Source: Alphaproteobacteria bacterium
GTDB taxonomy: Bacteria > Pseudomonadota > Alphaproteobacteria > Micropepsales > Micropepsaceae
Direction of reading: 5' to 3'
NCBI GenBank assembly: GCA_028871795.1
Contig: JAGWMG010000002.1
Coordinates: 248,001-312,000, forward strand
DNA: 64,000 nt
Shown here: piece by piece, positions 23,002-43,272 of the stretch
Position numbering within the stretch: position 1 is the first letter of the stretch
Layout: every line of letters begins with the position of its first letter
The notes under the pieces: model-generated
What the model saw: only the letters and a program-made list of their open reading frames with translations
Told to the model about the DNA's origin: nothing
Database searches by the model: none
Translations under genes and position numbers: made by a program

Positions 23002-23601
23002 TTACTTCCGCTGCTGGCTCAACTCGGCGAGTTGCCTGCGCATCGCCTCGATCTCGCTTTTCAATTCGCTGATCTCCTCCGACGGTTTTGCCTCGGCGGT
23101 GCCGTTGGTCCTGGGCTCGGCTTCCTCGGCGCGCGGCGGGCGCGGGCCAAAGGGCGAGAACATCTGCATGGCGCGCTCGAACATCTGCAGATTCTGCCGC
23201 GTGAGATTTTCCAACGCCTGGCTGCCGCCGCCGAAGGCCTCGGCGATGCGGCTGCGCATGGCCTCCTGGTTCTTGGTGAAGCTCTCCATCGAGAGGTCGA
23301 GATAACCCGGCACGAAGGCCTGCATGCTGTCGCCGTAAAGGCGGATGAGCTGGCGCAGGAACTTGATGGGCAGCAGGTTGTGCCCTTTGGTCTCTTCCTC
23401 GAAGATGATCTGGGTGAGCACCGAGCGGGTGATGTCCTCGCCCGAGCGCGCGTCGAGCACCTGGAACTCGACGCCTTCCTTGACCATCTCGCAGAGATGA
23501 TCGAGCGTCACGTAGCTCGAGGTCTGGGTGTTGTAGAGTCGCCGGTTCGCGTACTTCTTGATGATCACCGGAGTTTCGGCTTTCGAGGATTCTTCCGCCA
23601 C
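23002..23601 (-). CDS. phaR: Polyhydroxyalkanoate synthesis repressor PhaR
   Basis: This encodes 199 residues. The N-terminal DNA/PHB-binding domain shows VIIKKYANRRLYNTQTSSYV and the PHB accumulation regulatory domain shows ARSGEDITRSVLTQIIFEEE and LLPIKFLRQLIRLYGDSMQ. The C-terminal third is a coiled coil (ISELKSEIEAMRRQLAELSQQ). In known systems PhaR represses phasin and its own gene and is released by nascent PHB. Here it is divergent from a PhaA-type thiolase, and a TTTTGC/GCAAAA dyad lies in the shared region, so autoregulation is likely. Confidence 0.95.
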   Translation of the reverse strand: MAEESSKAETPVIIKKYANRRLYNTQTSSYVTLDHLCEMVKEGVEFQVLDARSGEDITRSVLTQIIFEEETKGHNLLPIKFLRQLIRLYGDSMQAFVPGYLDLSMESFTKNQEAMRSRIAEAFGGGSQALENLTRQNLQMFERAMQMFSPFGPRPPRAEEAEPRTNGTAEAKPSEEISELKSEIEAMRRQLAELSQQRK

Positions 23602-23690: not shown

Positions 23691-23710
23691 ATTTTGCGCA
23701 GGTGCAAAAT
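23691..23710. promoter_or_regulatory. ATTTTGC-N6-GCAAAAT dyad between phaR and phaA (putative PhaR operator)
   Basis: The perfect 7-bp arms ATTTTGC (23691-23697) and GCAAAAT (23704-23710) enclose GCAGGT. PhaR operators described in Paracoccus and Rhodobacter are TGC/GCA-rich inverted repeats, so PhaR is the obvious candidate. It lies 90 bases from the phaR start and 122 bases from the phaA start. Confidence 0.5.
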
Positions 23711-23736
23711 GAAGCTGCACGCCGCACATCACATAA

Positions 23737-25005
<1,269 letters not shown>

Positions 25006-27348: not shown

Positions 27349-27969
27349 TCAACGCGTGTTTTTCAGGTCGAACCGCACCTGGACGTCGCTCGTGCTCGCA
27401 ACCGCCATGCCGGCGCGCAGCGCCGGCCGGTAGCGCCAATGCGCCAGGATCCAGCTGCGCGCGGCCAGATCGAGATCGCCGTAGCCGCTGGACCGTACGA
27501 CGGCCGCGTCCGTCACAATGCCTTGCGGCGAAATCGTCAGATGCAGCCGCACGCTGCCTTCCTCGCTGAGCCGGATGGCGAGCGGCGGATAGGGCGGCGT
27601 GGTGTGCGTGCTGCCGATGGGAGCGGCGCCATAGTCGTACGTCGGCGTCGACGGCCCTTGGACCAGTGTGATGCCGCCCTGCGATTGCTGGCCGCTGTCG
27701 ATCACGATCACCGGCTTCACGGCTGTGACGTCAGCCGGCTGGCGCCAAGGAGTGGCGGGTGGCGGAATCTGCCCCGGCTTGATGTTGCTCTTTATGAAGT
27801 CAATCTGTGTCCTCGGCTCCGGCGTCGGCCAGATTTTGACGTGGAGTCCCTCGATCAAGGCGAGGATCACCGCGACTTGAATCAATCCGGCGAAGATAAA
27901 ACCCGTCACGCGTTGCGGCGTCATTCCCTTCGGCCGCACCGTGGCGATGGCATGCTGTGTCGTCTGCAT
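27349..27969 (-). CDS. TonB-like energy transducer, stand-alone
   Basis: This encodes 206 residues: a short cytosolic N-terminus, one membrane helix (VTGFIFAGLIQVAVILALIEG), a proline-containing periplasmic linker, and a C-terminal TonB domain with YPPLAIRLSEEGSVRLHLTI, a VRSSGYGDLDLAARSWILAH helix and WRYRPALRAGMAV. TonB proteins carry proton-motive energy from ExbB/ExbD to outer-membrane receptors. No exbB or exbD is adjacent, so it must borrow a motor, perhaps that at 40-41.6 kb, which has its own TonB. The linker is short and poor in the usual Pro-Lys repeats. Confidence 0.85.
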   Translation of the reverse strand: MQTTQHAIATVRPKGMTPQRVTGFIFAGLIQVAVILALIEGLHVKIWPTPEPRTQIDFIKSNIKPGQIPPPATPWRQPADVTAVKPVIVIDSGQQSQGGITLVQGPSTPTYDYGAAPIGSTHTTPPYPPLAIRLSEEGSVRLHLTISPQGIVTDAAVVRSSGYGDLDLAARSWILAHWRYRPALRAGMAVASTSDVQVRFDLKNTR

Positions 27970-28146: not shown

Positions 28147-28506
28147 CTACGCCGCCATCATCCGTTCCACTTCGGCGACGATCTCGCGCAGATGGAACGG
28201 CTTGGAGAGCACTTTCGCCTGCTTGGGCGCGTTGGACGAGGGGTGCAGAGCGACCGCGGCGAATCCGGTGATGAACATGATCTTCATCGGCGGATTCATT
28301 TCGGCGGCGCGTTTGGCGAGTTCGATGCCGTCCATGCCCGGCATGACGATGTCGGTGAGCAGCAGATCGAAGCGCACGCCCTTCAGGCAGCCATAGGCGT
28401 CTTCGCCGTCGCCGAAATCGGCGACCTCGTGGCCGGCGCGGATCAGCGCCTGCGCCAGAAACTTACGCAACGACTCGTCGTCCTCGACCAGCAGGATATG
28501 CGCCAT
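28147..28506 (-). CDS. cpdR: CpdR-type single-domain response regulator
   Basis: This encodes 119 residues from ATG 28506, with GGAG six bases upstream. It is a bare receiver domain: acidic pocket E8-D9-D10, phosphorylation site D52 in LLLTDIVMPGMDGIELAKRA, and conserved lysine in KVLSKPFHLREIV. The sequence KIMFITGFAAVAL, and the KAKVLSKPxHLRE ending, match CpdR of Caulobacter and Brucella closely. Unphosphorylated CpdR brings ClpXP to the pole and primes degradation of cell-cycle factors including CtrA; phosphorylation comes from the CckA-ChpT relay. The divergent N-formylglutamate amidohydrolase gene beside it is a known alphaproteobacterial neighbour. Confidence 0.93.
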   Translation of the reverse strand: MAHILLVEDDESLRKFLAQALIRAGHEVADFGDGEDAYGCLKGVRFDLLLTDIVMPGMDGIELAKRAAEMNPPMKIMFITGFAAVALHPSSNAPKQAKVLSKPFHLREIVAEVERMMAA

Positions 28507-28686
28507 GCACCGCTCCACCCTGACGGAACTAAACCGTATAATCCCTCAACCGTAAATGCCGGTTAAAGCCCCCTGCCGCAGGCTTGATCGGCAGGGCGGG
28601 TTAATGGTCCACTACAGGGCGTTTCCCGGCAATCCGTTGCAGCGGGAATATGCGGGGTTTCTAGGGAGATTGCGCGGATTTCCGCC

Positions 28687-29607
28687 ATGGCTGGACCGCT
28701 AAACGAGAAAGAAAGCGTCGCGCCCGATCCCGTTCTGGTGGATCTTTGCCGCGAACCGTACCGGATTGCGCGGCCCGGAAAGCAGACGGCGCCTTTTATT
28801 TTCGCCTCTCCGCACTCCGGAAAGCTCTATCCTGCGCAATTCGTGGCCGGAAGCTGGCTTACGCCCGTGGCGCTGCGCCGCTCCGAGGACGCTTTCGTGG
28901 ACGAGTTGTTCGAAAGCGCCGTGGAGCGAGGCGCGTTAATGATCGCGGCCAGGTTCCCGCGCGCCTTCCTGGACGTGAACCGCGCGGCGTCGGAACTCGA
29001 CGACACCATGTTCGATGCCGCCTTGCGGGTGGAGGTGGATGCACAAAGTGCGCGCGTTGCGGCCGGCTTGGGCGTCATCCCGCGGATCGTGCGCGACGGC
29101 GCGGAGATCTATCGCCAGCGGCTCTCGCCCGCCGAGGCCGAAATGCGATTGAACCGGCTTTATCGCCCTTACCACGCGGCGCTGGCCGCACTCGTCGAGG
29201 AGACCGTCGCACGCTTCGGCGCGGCGGTGGTCGTGGATTGCCATTCCATGCCGTCGGCGGCATCGATCCCCGACATCGTGCTCGGCGACCGCCACGGCGC
29301 CTCGGCGTCAGCGGCACTGATGCACCACGTCGAAGCCGTCTTGGCGGCGTGCGGTTTTTCGACCGCGCGCAATACGCCTTATGCCGGCGGCTTCACCACG
29401 CAGGTTTACGGACGGCGTCAACCGGGCGTCCACGCACTGCAGATCGAAGTGAACCGCACGCTCTATCTCGACGAGGACCGCATCGAGCGGCTGACGCGCT
29501 TCGAGGAAACGCGCCAGCGCCTCGGCAAAGCGTTGGGAAAGCTGCTCGCCGTGGACACGGACATTCTGCTCCAGAATCCGCCGCGCCCGTCGCTGGCGGC
29601 GGAGTGA
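28687..29607 (+). CDS. N-formylglutamate amidohydrolase family protein
   Basis: This encodes 306 residues. The metal-binding motifs of the family are visible: SPHSG near residue 40, RDGAEIYRQRLSPAEAE, VVDCHSMPSAA and DIVLGDRHG. In the histidine-degradation pathway this family cleaves N-formylglutamate to formate and glutamate, but no hut genes are here, and the alphaproteobacterial copies beside cpdR are often not tied to histidine use, so the substrate is open. Probably cytosolic. A minus-strand RNA with its own terminator lies directly downstream. Confidence 0.88.
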   Translation: MAGPLNEKESVAPDPVLVDLCREPYRIARPGKQTAPFIFASPHSGKLYPAQFVAGSWLTPVALRRSEDAFVDELFESAVERGALMIAARFPRAFLDVNRAASELDDTMFDAALRVEVDAQSARVAAGLGVIPRIVRDGAEIYRQRLSPAEAEMRLNRLYRPYHAALAALVEETVARFGAAVVVDCHSMPSAASIPDIVLGDRHGASASAALMHHVEAVLAACGFSTARNTPYAGGFTTQVYGRRQPGVHALQIEVNRTLYLDEDRIERLTRFEETRQRLGKALGKLLAVDTDILLQNPPRPSLAAE

Positions 29608-29644: not shown

Positions 29645-29674
29645 AAAAGAAAGGCCGCTCCCGAGGGAGCGGCC
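29645..29674 (-). terminator. Rho-independent terminator of the candidate sRNA
   Basis: An 8- to 10-bp GC stem (GGCCGCTC arms, 29653-29674) is followed on the minus strand by TTTCTTTT (29652-29645). The T-tract exists only on the minus side, so it does not serve the converging N-formylglutamate amidohydrolase gene well. Confidence 0.8.
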
Positions 29675-29740
29675 AAGTTCAGGGAGGAAACGCCCAGGAA
29701 GGGCCGCGGCGTCGCAAAGAGGAAGTCCGCAATACCGCGC
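29645..29740 (-). ncRNA. Candidate trans-acting sRNA with anti-Shine-Dalgarno loops
   Basis: About 95 nt transcribed leftwards. From the predicted 5' end: an outer stem CGCGG/CCGCG with inner pairs and a 13-nt loop carrying CUUCCUCUUU; a second hairpin GCCC-UUCCU-GGGC; an unpaired GUUUCCUCCCUGAACUU; then a terminator. Three UUCCU motifs are exposed, able to pair with GGAGG ribosome sites. The UUUCCUCCCUGAACUUGGCC segment before a strong hairpin recalls, from memory, alphaproteobacterial suhB/MmgR/cuckoo-like sRNAs. MmgR limits PHB build-up in Sinorhizobium; this window has phaR and phaA. Expression is inferred, not shown. Confidence 0.65.
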
Positions 29741-29746
29741 TGCAAC

Positions 29747-29775
29747 AATATGACACCTTAACTGGCCGCGAACAA
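29747..29775 (-). promoter_or_regulatory. Sigma-70-like promoter for the candidate sRNA
   Basis: On the minus strand, TTGTTC (29775-29770) and CATATT (29752-29747) are separated by 17 bases. This would place the start of transcription near 29740. The -10 box is a moderate match. Confidence 0.45.
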
Positions 29776-30052
29776 GCCAGAACACATGTGGACGACAAAA
29801 TATTTTCGTACAAATTTCCTAATATTTCCATGGGTAAGTTACAGTTTGCGCAAGGACTGGACAGTTCCTACCACTTCGTTGTGCAGCGCAAAATGTCAGC
29901 GGTGACGTTGATGGAATATCCATGCTTATAGGGCGATCGCACGCTCGATTCACAAACCTGTCTTCGCACTGCAACAATAGATTTGCGGATTGCGGTTACC
30001 ACCGGCCGTGGGCTGCGTCGGTGCGATTCGGGCGGCGTCATGGAGCCCGTAC

Positions 30053-30964
30053 ATGGCCGAAAGAGCCTGGTCCCCGAACGCATACCTTCGCCCCGGACCG
30101 CTTGCGGCGGAGTACGCCAGACGGCCTCCGGCGCAGGCTTTCCGCCATGGCCGTTCGCCCGCAGTACGCCGCCATCGCACCATTTTCATTTCCGACGTCC
30201 ATCTGGGCACGCACGGCTGCAAAGCGGAGATGTTGAGCGATTTCCTGGCGCGCAACACCTGCGACACGCTCTATCTGGTCGGCGACATCCTCGACGGCTG
30301 GCAGCTCAAGCGCCGCTGGTACTGGAACGACGCCCAGACGCGCGTCGTGGGCGAGATTCTGCGCAAAATCGACGAAGGCGTGCGTGTCGTCTACGTGCCA
30401 GGCAATCACGACGAGTTCCTGCGCGATTACTGCGGCCGCAGCGTCGCCGGTGTCGAGGTGGTGCGTGAAACGATCCACTTGACCGCCGACGGACGCCACC
30501 TGCTCGTTCTGCACGGCGATCAGTTCGACGGCGTCATCGGCTACGCCAAATGGCTGGCCCATGTCGGCGACCGGGCCTACGGCACGGCTCTGGCGCTCAA
30601 CGACCGGCTCCACATCCTGCGCCGCGGCCTCGGCCTGCCCTACTGGTCGCTGTCCGCCTATTTGAAGAGGAAGGTCAAGAACGCGGTCGAATACGTTTCG
30701 CGTTTCGAGGAGGCGGTGGCCCGCACCGCCGCGCCCAAAAGCGTCGACGGCGTGATTTGCGGCCACATCCACCAGGCGGAAATCCGCCGAATCGGCCCCA
30801 TCCTCTATCTCAACGACGGTGACTGGGTTGAAAGCTGCACGGCCCTTGTCGAAGATGCGCGCGGACATCTGGAGATTCTGCGCTGGGCATCCTCTCCTTC
30901 TGCGAGCGAGCTTGCCCGCGCGTCTGCGGGCACCAAAGGTGAAGCTGCGCTTATACCCGCGTAG
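30053..30964 (+). CDS. LpxH-like UDP-2,3-diacylglucosamine diphosphatase
   Basis: This encodes 303 residues from ATG 30053, chosen because GGAG lies seven bases upstream. The dimetal phosphoesterase motifs are all present: FISDVHLGTHG, GDILDGW, YVPGNHDEFL, LVLHGDQFDG and CGHIHQAEI. Length and the HGDQFD and YLNDGDWVESC segments fit the UDP-2,3-diacylglucosamine diphosphatase (LpxH-like) branch, which makes lipid X in lipid A synthesis. Alphaproteobacteria often use LpxI, so this paralogue may act on a related lipid. The next gene, a GT4 transferase, starts 25 bases downstream. Together they suggest envelope glycolipid work. Confidence 0.87.
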   Translation: MAERAWSPNAYLRPGPLAAEYARRPPAQAFRHGRSPAVRRHRTIFISDVHLGTHGCKAEMLSDFLARNTCDTLYLVGDILDGWQLKRRWYWNDAQTRVVGEILRKIDEGVRVVYVPGNHDEFLRDYCGRSVAGVEVVRETIHLTADGRHLLVLHGDQFDGVIGYAKWLAHVGDRAYGTALALNDRLHILRRGLGLPYWSLSAYLKRKVKNAVEYVSRFEEAVARTAAPKSVDGVICGHIHQAEIRRIGPILYLNDGDWVESCTALVEDARGHLEILRWASSPSASELARASAGTKGEAALIPA

Positions 30965-30989
30965 GATTCGTCGTCGCCGACACGGTGCG

Positions 30990-32033
30990 ATGCCGGCTGG
31001 CATCGGGACCGGCGAAGGCCTCAGCCTCAAAGTCCTGATCGTCACCGACGCCTGGGCGCCCCAGGTCAACGGCGTCGTGCGCACGCTCGAAATCCTCGGG
31101 CAGGATTTGCGCGCGCTTGGGCACGAAGTGCGCTACGCCACCCCGCAGGGCCGCTTTACGCTGCCCTTGCCGACCTATTCGGAAATCAGGCTGGCGATCT
31201 TTCCCCGCGGAGATCTGGAACGCGAGATCCGCGAATACGCCCCCGACGCGATCCATATCGCCACGGAAGGGACGCTGGGCATGTCCGCGCGCGCCCTCTG
31301 CCTGAAATACCACATCCCCTTCACCACCTCGTTCCACACCCGCTTTCCCGAGTATGTCCGGGCGCGTTTCCCCTTTATCGGCGAAGAGCCGGTTTACCGG
31401 TTCCTGCGCTGGTTCCATCAGCCCGCGACCGCGATGATGGTGGCGACCCCTTCGCTCAAGCGCGAACTCGAGAGCCGCGGCTTCCGCAATGCGCGCATCT
31501 GGTCGCGCGGCGTCGACACGGATCAGTTCCGGCCGCTTCCCGGCGCGGCACTGCCTTTCCCGAAACCGATCTGGCTTTACGTCGGCCGCGTCGCAGTCGA
31601 GAAGAACATCGAGGCGTTCCTCAAGCTGAAGCTGGACGGCACCAAGGTCGTGGTGGGAGACGGGCCGGCCAGGCCGACGCTGGAGCGCGCCTATCCGGCC
31701 GCGAGATTCCTCGGACAGAAGACCGGCGAAGCGCTGGTGAGCGCCTATGCGGCCAGCGACGTTTTCGTCTTCCCGAGCCGCACCGACACCTTCGGGCTGG
31801 TGATTCTGGAGGCCCTGGCCTGCGGCACGCCGGTGGCGGCTTATCCGGTGCAGGGACCGAAGGACGTGATCGACGGCGCCACCGTCGCGGCGCTGGACGA
31901 CGATTTGGAGAGGGCTTGCCGCGAAGCGCTCGCAATCCCGCGCGAGGCCGCCAGATCGTTCGCCGTCAGCCGGTCGTGGCGGTTCTGCACCCAGCAATTC
32001 CTTTCCAATTTGGCGGTCGAGAGCGAAGTGTAG
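30990..32033 (+). CDS. GT4 family glycosyltransferase (mannosyl/sulfoquinovosyl-like)
   Basis: This encodes 347 residues from ATG 30990. The GT-B fold is clear: KVLIVTDAWAPQVNGVVRTLE at the N-terminus, then TSFHTRFPEYV, WSRGVDTDQFRP, YVGRVAVEKNIEAFL and the donor-binding VFPSRTDTFGLVILEALACGTPVAAYPVQGPKDVI. The VNGVVRT and SRTDTFGL motifs place it with transferases that add hexoses to diacylglycerol or phosphatidylinositol lipids (SqdX/MgtA-like). Probably peripheral on the cytoplasmic membrane. The frame is open upstream into the LpxH-like gene but that part has no family resemblance. Confidence 0.88.
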   Translation: MPAGIGTGEGLSLKVLIVTDAWAPQVNGVVRTLEILGQDLRALGHEVRYATPQGRFTLPLPTYSEIRLAIFPRGDLEREIREYAPDAIHIATEGTLGMSARALCLKYHIPFTTSFHTRFPEYVRARFPFIGEEPVYRFLRWFHQPATAMMVATPSLKRELESRGFRNARIWSRGVDTDQFRPLPGAALPFPKPIWLYVGRVAVEKNIEAFLKLKLDGTKVVVGDGPARPTLERAYPAARFLGQKTGEALVSAYAASDVFVFPSRTDTFGLVILEALACGTPVAAYPVQGPKDVIDGATVAALDDDLERACREALAIPREAARSFAVSRSWRFCTQQFLSNLAVESEV

Positions 32034-41734: not shown

Positions 41735-42343
41735 TCACTTGAGTCTCCATTGCACGTTTGCCCTCAATCCGACCGCGACTGGTTTGCCCGCTTCGATGGC
41801 CGGGTGGTAGTGCCAGTCCACCACGCAGTTCAGTGCGGCAGCATCAAGGCGTTCCGATCCGCTCGACTTGGCCACCGTGGGATTGGTGACGGTGCCGTCG
41901 GCGGTCACAGTGAATGCAACCTGAGTGGTTCCTTCTTCGCCGAGACGCTGTGAAATCGACGGATAATTCTGCTGGCAGGTGTGCGGCCTGCCGTACGACA
42001 CCGGCGAAGAGATCAGCACCGTTGCCACCTTGCTCTGCGTCGTGATGGTGTTGGTCGGCGCCGTTTCCTGCATGATGACGATGTCGGGCGCCGGCACGAA
42101 GGGCGGCGGGGGAGCCTTGAGCTCCGGCGGGGGCGGCGGCGGCGTTTTGTCCGGAAGCTTTTCGGGCAGCACCTCGACCTTGATGACCTCGTTGAGCTTT
42201 TGCACCATCGTTAGCGCCAAGCCGGACGAGAGCGCCCATCCGATGCCGAGGACGATCCCCGCCGAGGCAGCCAGCGAGACCACGCGACTAGGCGCTAACC
42301 AAGAGCTATGTATGGCTCTTATAGAGTGTTTTGGCTGTTCCAT
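41735..42343 (-). CDS. tonB: TonB energy transducer
   Basis: This encodes 202 residues. One N-terminal membrane helix (VVSLAASAGIVLGIGWALSSG) is followed by a proline-rich linker (DKTPPPPPPELKAPPPPFVPAP) and a C-terminal TonB domain with YPSISQRLGEEGTTQVAFTV, SGSERLDAAALNCVVDW and HYHPAIEAGKPVAVG. Two cysteines (C123 and C174) may form a disulfide. It transfers energy from ExbB/ExbD to outer-membrane receptors. It leads the operon tonB-exbB-exbD-exbD-TPR. A terminator-like hairpin sits in its 5' leader. Confidence 0.94.
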   Translation of the reverse strand: MEQPKHSIRAIHSSWLAPSRVVSLAASAGIVLGIGWALSSGLALTMVQKLNEVIKVEVLPEKLPDKTPPPPPPELKAPPPPFVPAPDIVIMQETAPTNTITTQSKVATVLISSPVSYGRPHTCQQNYPSISQRLGEEGTTQVAFTVTADGTVTNPTVAKSSGSERLDAAALNCVVDWHYHPAIEAGKPVAVGLRANVQWRLK

Positions 42344-42599: not shown

Positions 42600-42831
42600 A
42601 AAACACAAGAGAAAATCTTGCGTTTTGACTTGCGACGCTCGTCTTTTTTGCGCGCGACCAATCGGCGCGGTGCGCGTGCCGCCGGTGAAAAGCGCATTGT
42701 ACGAAACAGTTTACCGGCGGTGCGGCGACTGCCACCGACGGCTTTTGCCGCGTTGCAATATGAGTTCACATAACCGCGAATATGCCGGATGCTTCGCCTG
42801 AACGCTGAATTCTCGAAGAAGGAATTACACC

Positions 42832-43272
42832 ATGCGCTACCTGCATAGCATGATCCGGGTGGGCAACCTGGAAGCGACACTCGATTTCTTTTGCGCCAAG
42901 CTCGGATTCAGCGAAATGCACCGCATGGAAAACGATAAAGGCCGCTTTACGCTGGTGTTTCTGGCGGCGCCCGGCGATCGCGAACGGGCGGCACGCGAAG
43001 AGGCGCCGGTGGTCGAGCTCACTTACAATTGGGATTTGGAAGCCTATGCCGGCGGCCGCAATTTCGGGCATCTCGCCTACGCCGTGGACGACATTTACGC
43101 AACGTGCGCAAAGCTGATGGCGGCGGGCGTCGCGATCAACCGGCCGCCGCGCGACGGCCGCATGGCGTTTGTGCGCACGCCAGACGGTATCTCGATCGAA
43201 CTGCTGCAGGAAGGCGCCGCCTTGGCGCCCAAGGACCCCTGGGCGTCGATGCCAAATACCGGCAGTTGGTAG
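42832..43272 (+). CDS. gloA: Glyoxalase I (lactoylglutathione lyase)
   Basis: This encodes 146 residues. All four metal ligands of glyoxalase I are present: H5 (RYLHSMIRV), E62 (VVELTYNW), H80 (FGHLAY) and E123 (SIELLQ). KLGFSEMHR and GRNFGHLAYAVDDI are typical of the GloA class. It converts the glutathione hemithioacetal of methylglyoxal to S-lactoylglutathione in the cytosol. The threonine aldolase gene follows after 7 bases on the same strand, so the two are an operon. Confidence 0.95.
   Translation: MRYLHSMIRVGNLEATLDFFCAKLGFSEMHRMENDKGRFTLVFLAAPGDRERAAREEAPVVELTYNWDLEAYAGGRNFGHLAYAVDDIYATCAKLMAAGVAINRPPRDGRMAFVRTPDGISIELLQEGAALAPKDPWASMPNTGSW

Follow-up and report, generated by a model that had tools for sequence, protein, structure and literature searches.

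An alphaR8 small RNA of an alphaproteobacterium and the PhaR-like sites that accompany the promoters of its family

Introduction

alphaR8 (suhB/MmgR/SisA) is a known family of alphaproteobacterial small RNAs (sRNAs). Its Sinorhizobium meliloti member, MmgR, belongs to a circuit that includes activation by NtrC, and other family traits are Hfq binding and repression of mRNAs through a seed. MmgR is described as 77 nt long (PMC7143759). According to PMC8401924, an mmgR mutant of S. meliloti has more PHB and more phasin, although the effect of MmgR on phasin may be indirect. The repressor PhaR (AniA) of S. meliloti binds the mmgR promoter and represses mmgR (PMC12542648); S. meliloti is the one species in which this promoter step of a PhaR-alphaR8 circuit is known to have been shown by experiment.

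The Caulobacter crescentus member, SisA, is one of four siblings. A 10-mer of SisA is its experimentally tested seed: a CCNA_03574 reporter was no longer repressed when one position of the 10-mer was changed. Compensatory changes demonstrated that SisA pairs with the sponge CrfA, and the mutual effects of these two RNAs were much weaker without hfq (PMC12559287). When SisA was overexpressed, the levels of a set of transcripts fell (PMC12559287). The same source gives as alphaR8 traits a single-stranded 10-mer that follows a weak hairpin, a Rho-independent terminator and, in most species, a neighboring gene for N-formylglutamate amidohydrolase (FGase). The AbcR sRNAs (alphaR15) share the anti-Shine-Dalgarno (anti-SD) mode of action and bear a partial likeness to the suhB model, but are described as differing in length (114-120 nt), in their tandem genes, in their two CU-rich motifs and in their locus (PMC7143759).

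Here, we describe an alphaR8 sRNA in a genome of the Micropepsaceae, and the sites resembling those of PhaR that lie upstream of this RNA and of many of its relatives across the class.

Results

An alphaR8 sRNA between two genes

We analyzed a 64,000-nt stretch of DNA, referred to here as the window (positions 248,001 to 312,000 of contig JAGWMG010000002.1, assembly GCA_028871795.1). An earlier note had proposed that the window encodes a minus-strand anti-SD sRNA, had likened this to suhB/MmgR or cuckoo-type RNAs, and had suggested a covariance-model search as a check. Such a search bore out the first likeness: the minus strand of 29638-29711 matches the whole of the Rfam suhB/MmgR model RF00519 (positions 1-77 of 77) with a score of 67.2 bits, against a gathering threshold of 41. 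Among 4227 Rfam families, suhB alone reached its threshold, leaving the cuckoo-type alternative unsupported. Weaker matches with E-values of up to 1 (anti-hemB, SorY, sbrA and PhotoRC-I) scored 13.7-20.9 bits, far under their own thresholds. Cuckoo/CcsR RNAs carry a CU-rich, anti-SD-like sequence, as does the RNA described here, and have the loop motif CCUCCUCCC. That motif is absent from the minus strand of 29645-29741, and the Rfam search returned no Cuckoo/CcsR match. Several CU-rich stretches do lie within the one fold, and could suggest a different type of anti-SD sRNA (Cuckoo/CcsR, AbcR or alphaR14); with suhB alone above threshold, and with both the locus and the core being those of alphaR8, we consider such an assignment highly improbable. 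Judged by its sequence, the RNA at 29645-29741 (minus strand) is an ordinary additional copy of the alphaR8 family.

The host genome (2.98 Mb, 22 contigs) yielded one alphaR8 copy, as compared to the four siblings of Caulobacter. In a set of relatives that includes the host, 45 of 61 genomes have an RF00519 match, 43 of them over the cut-off. A class-wide draw gave an alphaR8 match in 171/289 genomes (135 over the cut-off), using strict filters by which weak matches were possibly lost. Among the matches listed, three genomes of one genus (G068, G177 and G257; loci L147, L150 and L152) have three neighboring alphaR8 copies each, within ~600-700 nt.

Promoter, hairpins, core and terminator

The earlier note had described a unit between two genes with its own promoter, two hairpins and a terminator on this strand only, and the sequence, the predicted fold and the list of terminators confirm this layout. 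The promoter read from the sequence (29747-29775, minus strand) consists of a -35 element TTGTTC (29775-29770), a 17-nt spacer and a -10 element CATATT (29752-29747). CATATT is found in 24 of 28 distinct loci from the genus, with a similar -10 in two more, and all 26 genus loci with a callable -10 have a TTG -35 at the 17-nt spacing. A sigma-70 scan with a threshold of 9 of 12 positions did not list this promoter, which has 7/12 consensus matches; this counts against the reading that we prefer.

The predicted transcript is ~96 nt (29645-29741, minus strand), as supported by the Rfam match, the fold and the conserved promoter, with the start placed from the position of the -10. It opens with a 5' hairpin (29705-29739) that has a 7-nt loop, CUUCCUC. 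Most of this hairpin falls outside the Rfam model, which starts at 29711. In an alignment of 35 relatives, 95.1% of the cells in the 5' helix are paired and 7 of its 11 pairs show changes on both sides; the 35 rows were kept from 53 candidates by dropping those with a 5' hairpin at another distance or hard to align, a choice that favors the hairpin. For the structure of three helices as a whole, none of 500 shuffles reached the observed covariation score. The paired, covarying 5' helix upstream of the Rfam model indicates that transcription probably starts near 29741, giving an RNA ~20 nt longer than the 77 nt reported for MmgR in PMC7143759.

A small hairpin, GCCC-UUCCU-GGGC (29692-29704, minus strand), follows in both the fold and the alignment. 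After this weak hairpin comes the 10-nt core UUUCCUCCCU (29690-29681), which corresponds to the family seed as defined for SisA and occupies the single-stranded position described for alphaR8 (PMC12559287). Part of the core is weakly paired in the minimum-energy fold; it is open in the centroid. The core is invariant in 35/35 rows of the alignment, rows that were chosen by the core itself, and TTTCCTCCC occurs on one strand or the other of the fetched stretch in 83 of 87 class loci that were picked by the Rfam model alone. The intrinsic terminator (29645-29674, minus strand) has a 9-bp stem (29674-29653) and a T-tract, TTTCTTTT, that runs to 29645, and a terminator-like site is listed for the minus strand only. 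When the RNA sequence was shuffled with its dinucleotides preserved, 2 of 200 shuffles equaled or bettered its fold (z = -3.0).

Three copies of an anti-SD motif had been claimed for this RNA. The core is conserved and the UUCCU of loop 2 mostly so (24/27 genus rows). In the loop of the 5' hairpin, by contrast, any of CCUC, UCCU or CUCC occurs in only 9/27 genus rows, even by this liberal test. The stem of this hairpin covaries and its loop varies, such that "three copies" is an overstatement, and we rejected a model of three equal copies.

Genes around the sRNA and elsewhere in the genome

The FGase gene (28687-29607, plus strand; PF05013), the usual alphaR8 neighbor according to PMC12559287, adjoins the sRNA on the opposite strand. 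Across the class, a tblastn search detected an FGase relative within the locus for 62 of 87 loci fetched by RNA. Just beyond the FGase gene, 28147-28518 (minus strand) encodes a CpdR-type cell-cycle response regulator (NF046022); among the distinct loci scanned, 87 have a relative downstream on the strand of the sRNA. On the other side of the sRNA is a divergent plus-strand gene that may start at either 29990 or 30056. Adjoining the PhaR-like sites described below, 30056-32033 (plus strand) encodes a calcineurin-like (LpxH-like) phosphoesterase and a GT4-family glycosyltransferase, a divergent pair that may resemble the PlcP/Agt lipid-remodeling pair of phosphate-starved alphaproteobacteria.

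The likely regulator gene phaR (23002-23601, minus strand) matches PF07879 and TIGR01848 over their cut-offs, and is a clear equivalog by TIGR01848. It lies 6.0 kb from the sRNA, and a phaA-type thiolase gene (23833-25005, plus strand) lies at a distance of 4.6 kb. The host genome also has a phasin gene, a PHB synthase gene and an hfq gene.

Candidate targets of the seed

The earlier proposal of a trans-acting anti-SD RNA is supported by homology, the core being the same 10-mer that was tested as the seed of SisA (PMC12559287). A search of the genome for GGGAGGAA 2 to 11 nt upstream of ATG found 16 places, as compared to 2 for a reversed control. Ordinary SD sequences largely explain this excess, and hence the 16 places are a list of candidates only. 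Eight of them open a frame of >100 aa; the six of these that were scanned comprised an ELFV-type glutamate dehydrogenase, a TonB-dependent receptor, a TPP enzyme, an esterase, a GH3 protein and one without a match. The leader of the phasin gene showed weak predicted pairing with the seed (-7.9 kcal/mol), which counts against phasin, and phasin as a direct target of the sRNA is therefore unsupported here. In the window, the leader of a TonB-family gene (27349-27969, minus strand), GGGGAGGGAG, is strongly complementary to the seed (-15.5 kcal/mol).

PhaR-like sites upstream of the sRNA

We built a PhaR matrix from the 15 S. meliloti sites that Table 3 of PMC12542648 marks as Efficient, i.e. those in fragments bound efficiently by purified PhaR, excluding the mmgR site, all four sites of exoH and the entry for acyP, which is the reverse of rpoE8. 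The S. meliloti mmgR site, which is outside the training set, scored 20.5 bits. Three of the four best sites in the 64-kb window lie upstream of the sRNA: one that covers the -10 and the predicted start (29730-29750, minus strand; 14.1 bits), a second at 29876-29896 (15.7 bits), and a third near the divergent gene (29959-29979), which has the highest score of the window (16.8 bits). In 20 Markov sequences, sites of at least 14.1 bits numbered 0.25 on average, compared to four in the window. Two observations count against these sites: all four of the window score under the weakest training site (17.2 bits), and none of the three upstream sites matches the strict published PhaR consensus. That consensus was not enriched across the genome (15 matches, as compared to 17 for a reversed control).

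The remaining site, at 42743-42763, is the second best in the window (16.0 bits) and also fits the strict consensus; it lies ~400 nt upstream of a minus-strand TonB-family ORF (41735-42343), while a plus-strand ORF (42832-43272) follows 69 nt after it. With a matrix for half-sites spaced by 4 nt, a wider-spaced site in the region that separates phaR from the thiolase gene (23691-23712) scored 20.8 bits, with the next best in the window at 10.3 bits. The phasin gene of the host genome has two sites with high scores (26.8 and 21.2 bits). A link between the sRNA and PHB control had been suggested previously, as an inference, from the effect of MmgR on PHB in Sinorhizobium and from the nearby phaR and phaA genes. 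We find that the PhaR-like promoter sites lend this link independent support; the position of phaR 6 kb away gives none.

The conserved dyad described earlier for mmgR lies between the -35 and -10 elements in the account of PMC8401924, whereas the nearest PhaR-like site here covers the -10 and the start. The sRNA and MmgR otherwise have in common the RF00519 match, the core, the terminator and a PhaR-like site at the promoter; they differ in the additional 5' hairpin of the RNA described here. With SisA, as described in PMC12559287, the RNA shares the 10-mer seed, the weak hairpin before it, the terminator and the FGase neighbor.

The PhaR-like sites could instead act chiefly on the divergent genes, those for the metallophosphoesterase and the glycosyltransferase, with the sRNA answering another signal. 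The best site, 29959-29979, is indeed nearest the divergent gene, and a site upstream of the core at a distance of 150-230 nt is found in 35/44 loci that have the divergent gene upstream, as compared to 35 of 118 loci in which the gene was not found. However, the site nearest the sRNA, which covers its -10 and start, is present in 85/118 of the loci in which the gene was not found as well as in 39/44 of those with it, and in S. meliloti it is the mmgR promoter itself that PhaR is reported to bind (PMC12542648). We therefore regard service to the divergent genes as an unlikely main role of the sites.

PhaR-like sites across the class

Of 85 distinct alphaR8 loci, 84 have their best site 20-400 nt upstream of the core, a zone that makes up ~6-13% of the length of most of the 85 loci and reaches roughly one quarter in the shortest. 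These loci came from a set of 111, from which we removed 14 duplicates and 12 loci without the core pattern, the phasin locus among the latter.

We compared promoters from genomes with and without phaR, taking a PF07879 match in the genome as its presence. For phaR-bearing genomes, 58 of 77 promoters, drawn from the matches listed, have a site of at least 12 bits within ~210 nt upstream. The 77 loci, one per genome, comprise 27 new ones and 50 that were chosen by hand among the matches listed, before scoring, a choice that skipped paralogs and some close relatives. For genomes without a phaR match, 3 of 10 loci (2 of 8 genomes, all from the listed matches) have such a site; 50 of the 135 genomes over the cut-off fall outside this comparison. 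Fisher's exact test gave p = 0.007 per locus, and p = 0.004 per genome when the wider-spaced form was included (60/77 compared to 2/8), values that are only indicative because the genomes are related. Both genomes that have sites but no phaR match, G190 and G214, count against an association. Their assemblies are incomplete and in many contigs (440 and 230 contigs; 95% and 91% complete), and phaR-bearing members exist in the same family, so the absence of phaR from them may be an assembly gap.

Sites at or above the threshold occur in 0.8-1.1% of random zones of the same loci and in 2.7% of AT-rich zones. The higher rate in AT-rich zones (2.7% as compared to 0.8%) would be consistent with the conserved TGC-rich sequence upstream reflecting the composition of promoters, or else another regulator with a similar half-site, rather than PhaR. 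We also observed that in three loci of one family that has phaR (L143, L149 and L170), the zone is without PhaR-like sites and shares a TTCGCAATTGCGA-like palindrome near the promoter; this different element, in about the same place, is perhaps the site of another regulator. Several results argue against extending such an explanation to the family as a whole. Column-permuted matrices found sites at 0.67 of the 77 promoters on average, and never at more than 7, compared to the 58 observed. The spacing of the half-sites matters: 58 of the 77 promoters have a site with a spacing of 3 nt, as compared to 5, 13 and 6 promoters for spacings of 2, 4 and 5 nt, and the 4-nt form adds just 2/77 promoters. 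Genomes without phaR carry fewer sites. We thus consider an origin of this conservation other than PhaR to be improbable, slightly more so than a main role at the divergent genes.

Two further observations weigh against the reading that we prefer: 17 of the 77 promoters from phaR-bearing genomes have no site of either spacing, and SisA of Caulobacter was nearly constitutive under the conditions described in PMC12559287. We found no published report of PhaR sites at alphaR8 promoters beyond the rhizobia; this is weak evidence given our partial coverage of the literature.

Discussion

We favor a reading, to which we assign a probability of roughly 0.8, in which this alphaR8 sRNA beside the FGase gene is made from its own promoter, represses mRNAs through its seed with the aid of Hfq, and is itself repressed by PhaR until PHB granules remove PhaR. 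By homology with MmgR and SisA, transcription from a sigma-70-type promoter would yield an RNA of ~96 nt. This RNA would begin with a 5' hairpin whose loop varies among relatives, followed by a small hairpin, by UUUCCUCCCU as an exposed seed and by a terminator. Through the seed, and together with Hfq, it would pair with the ribosome-binding sites of several mRNAs, leading to their repression. PhaR, a PHB-binding repressor, would act at the site over the -10 and start to repress the promoter, and PHB granules would draw PhaR away and so allow transcription in response to PHB.

The RNA is in itself a routine copy of its family; the part worth following is the conservation of the PhaR-like sites, which accompany alphaR8 promoters in most of the phaR-bearing genomes that we examined and in few without a phaR match. 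From this pattern, the PhaR circuit around alphaR8 looks wider than one species. As PhaR-like sites track the presence of phaR at alphaR8 promoters, the pattern suggests that the PhaR-MmgR link of S. meliloti represents an old circuit, one that couples carbon storage with post-transcriptional control. We lean, with less confidence than for the locus described here, toward a broader proposal: alphaR8 may be the RNA arm of the PhaR regulon across PHB-making alphaproteobacteria, with granules switching on a broad anti-SD repressor, and with the sites being lost where PhaR is absent. If so, the state of the storage polymer would be an input into the translation of transport and metabolic mRNAs.
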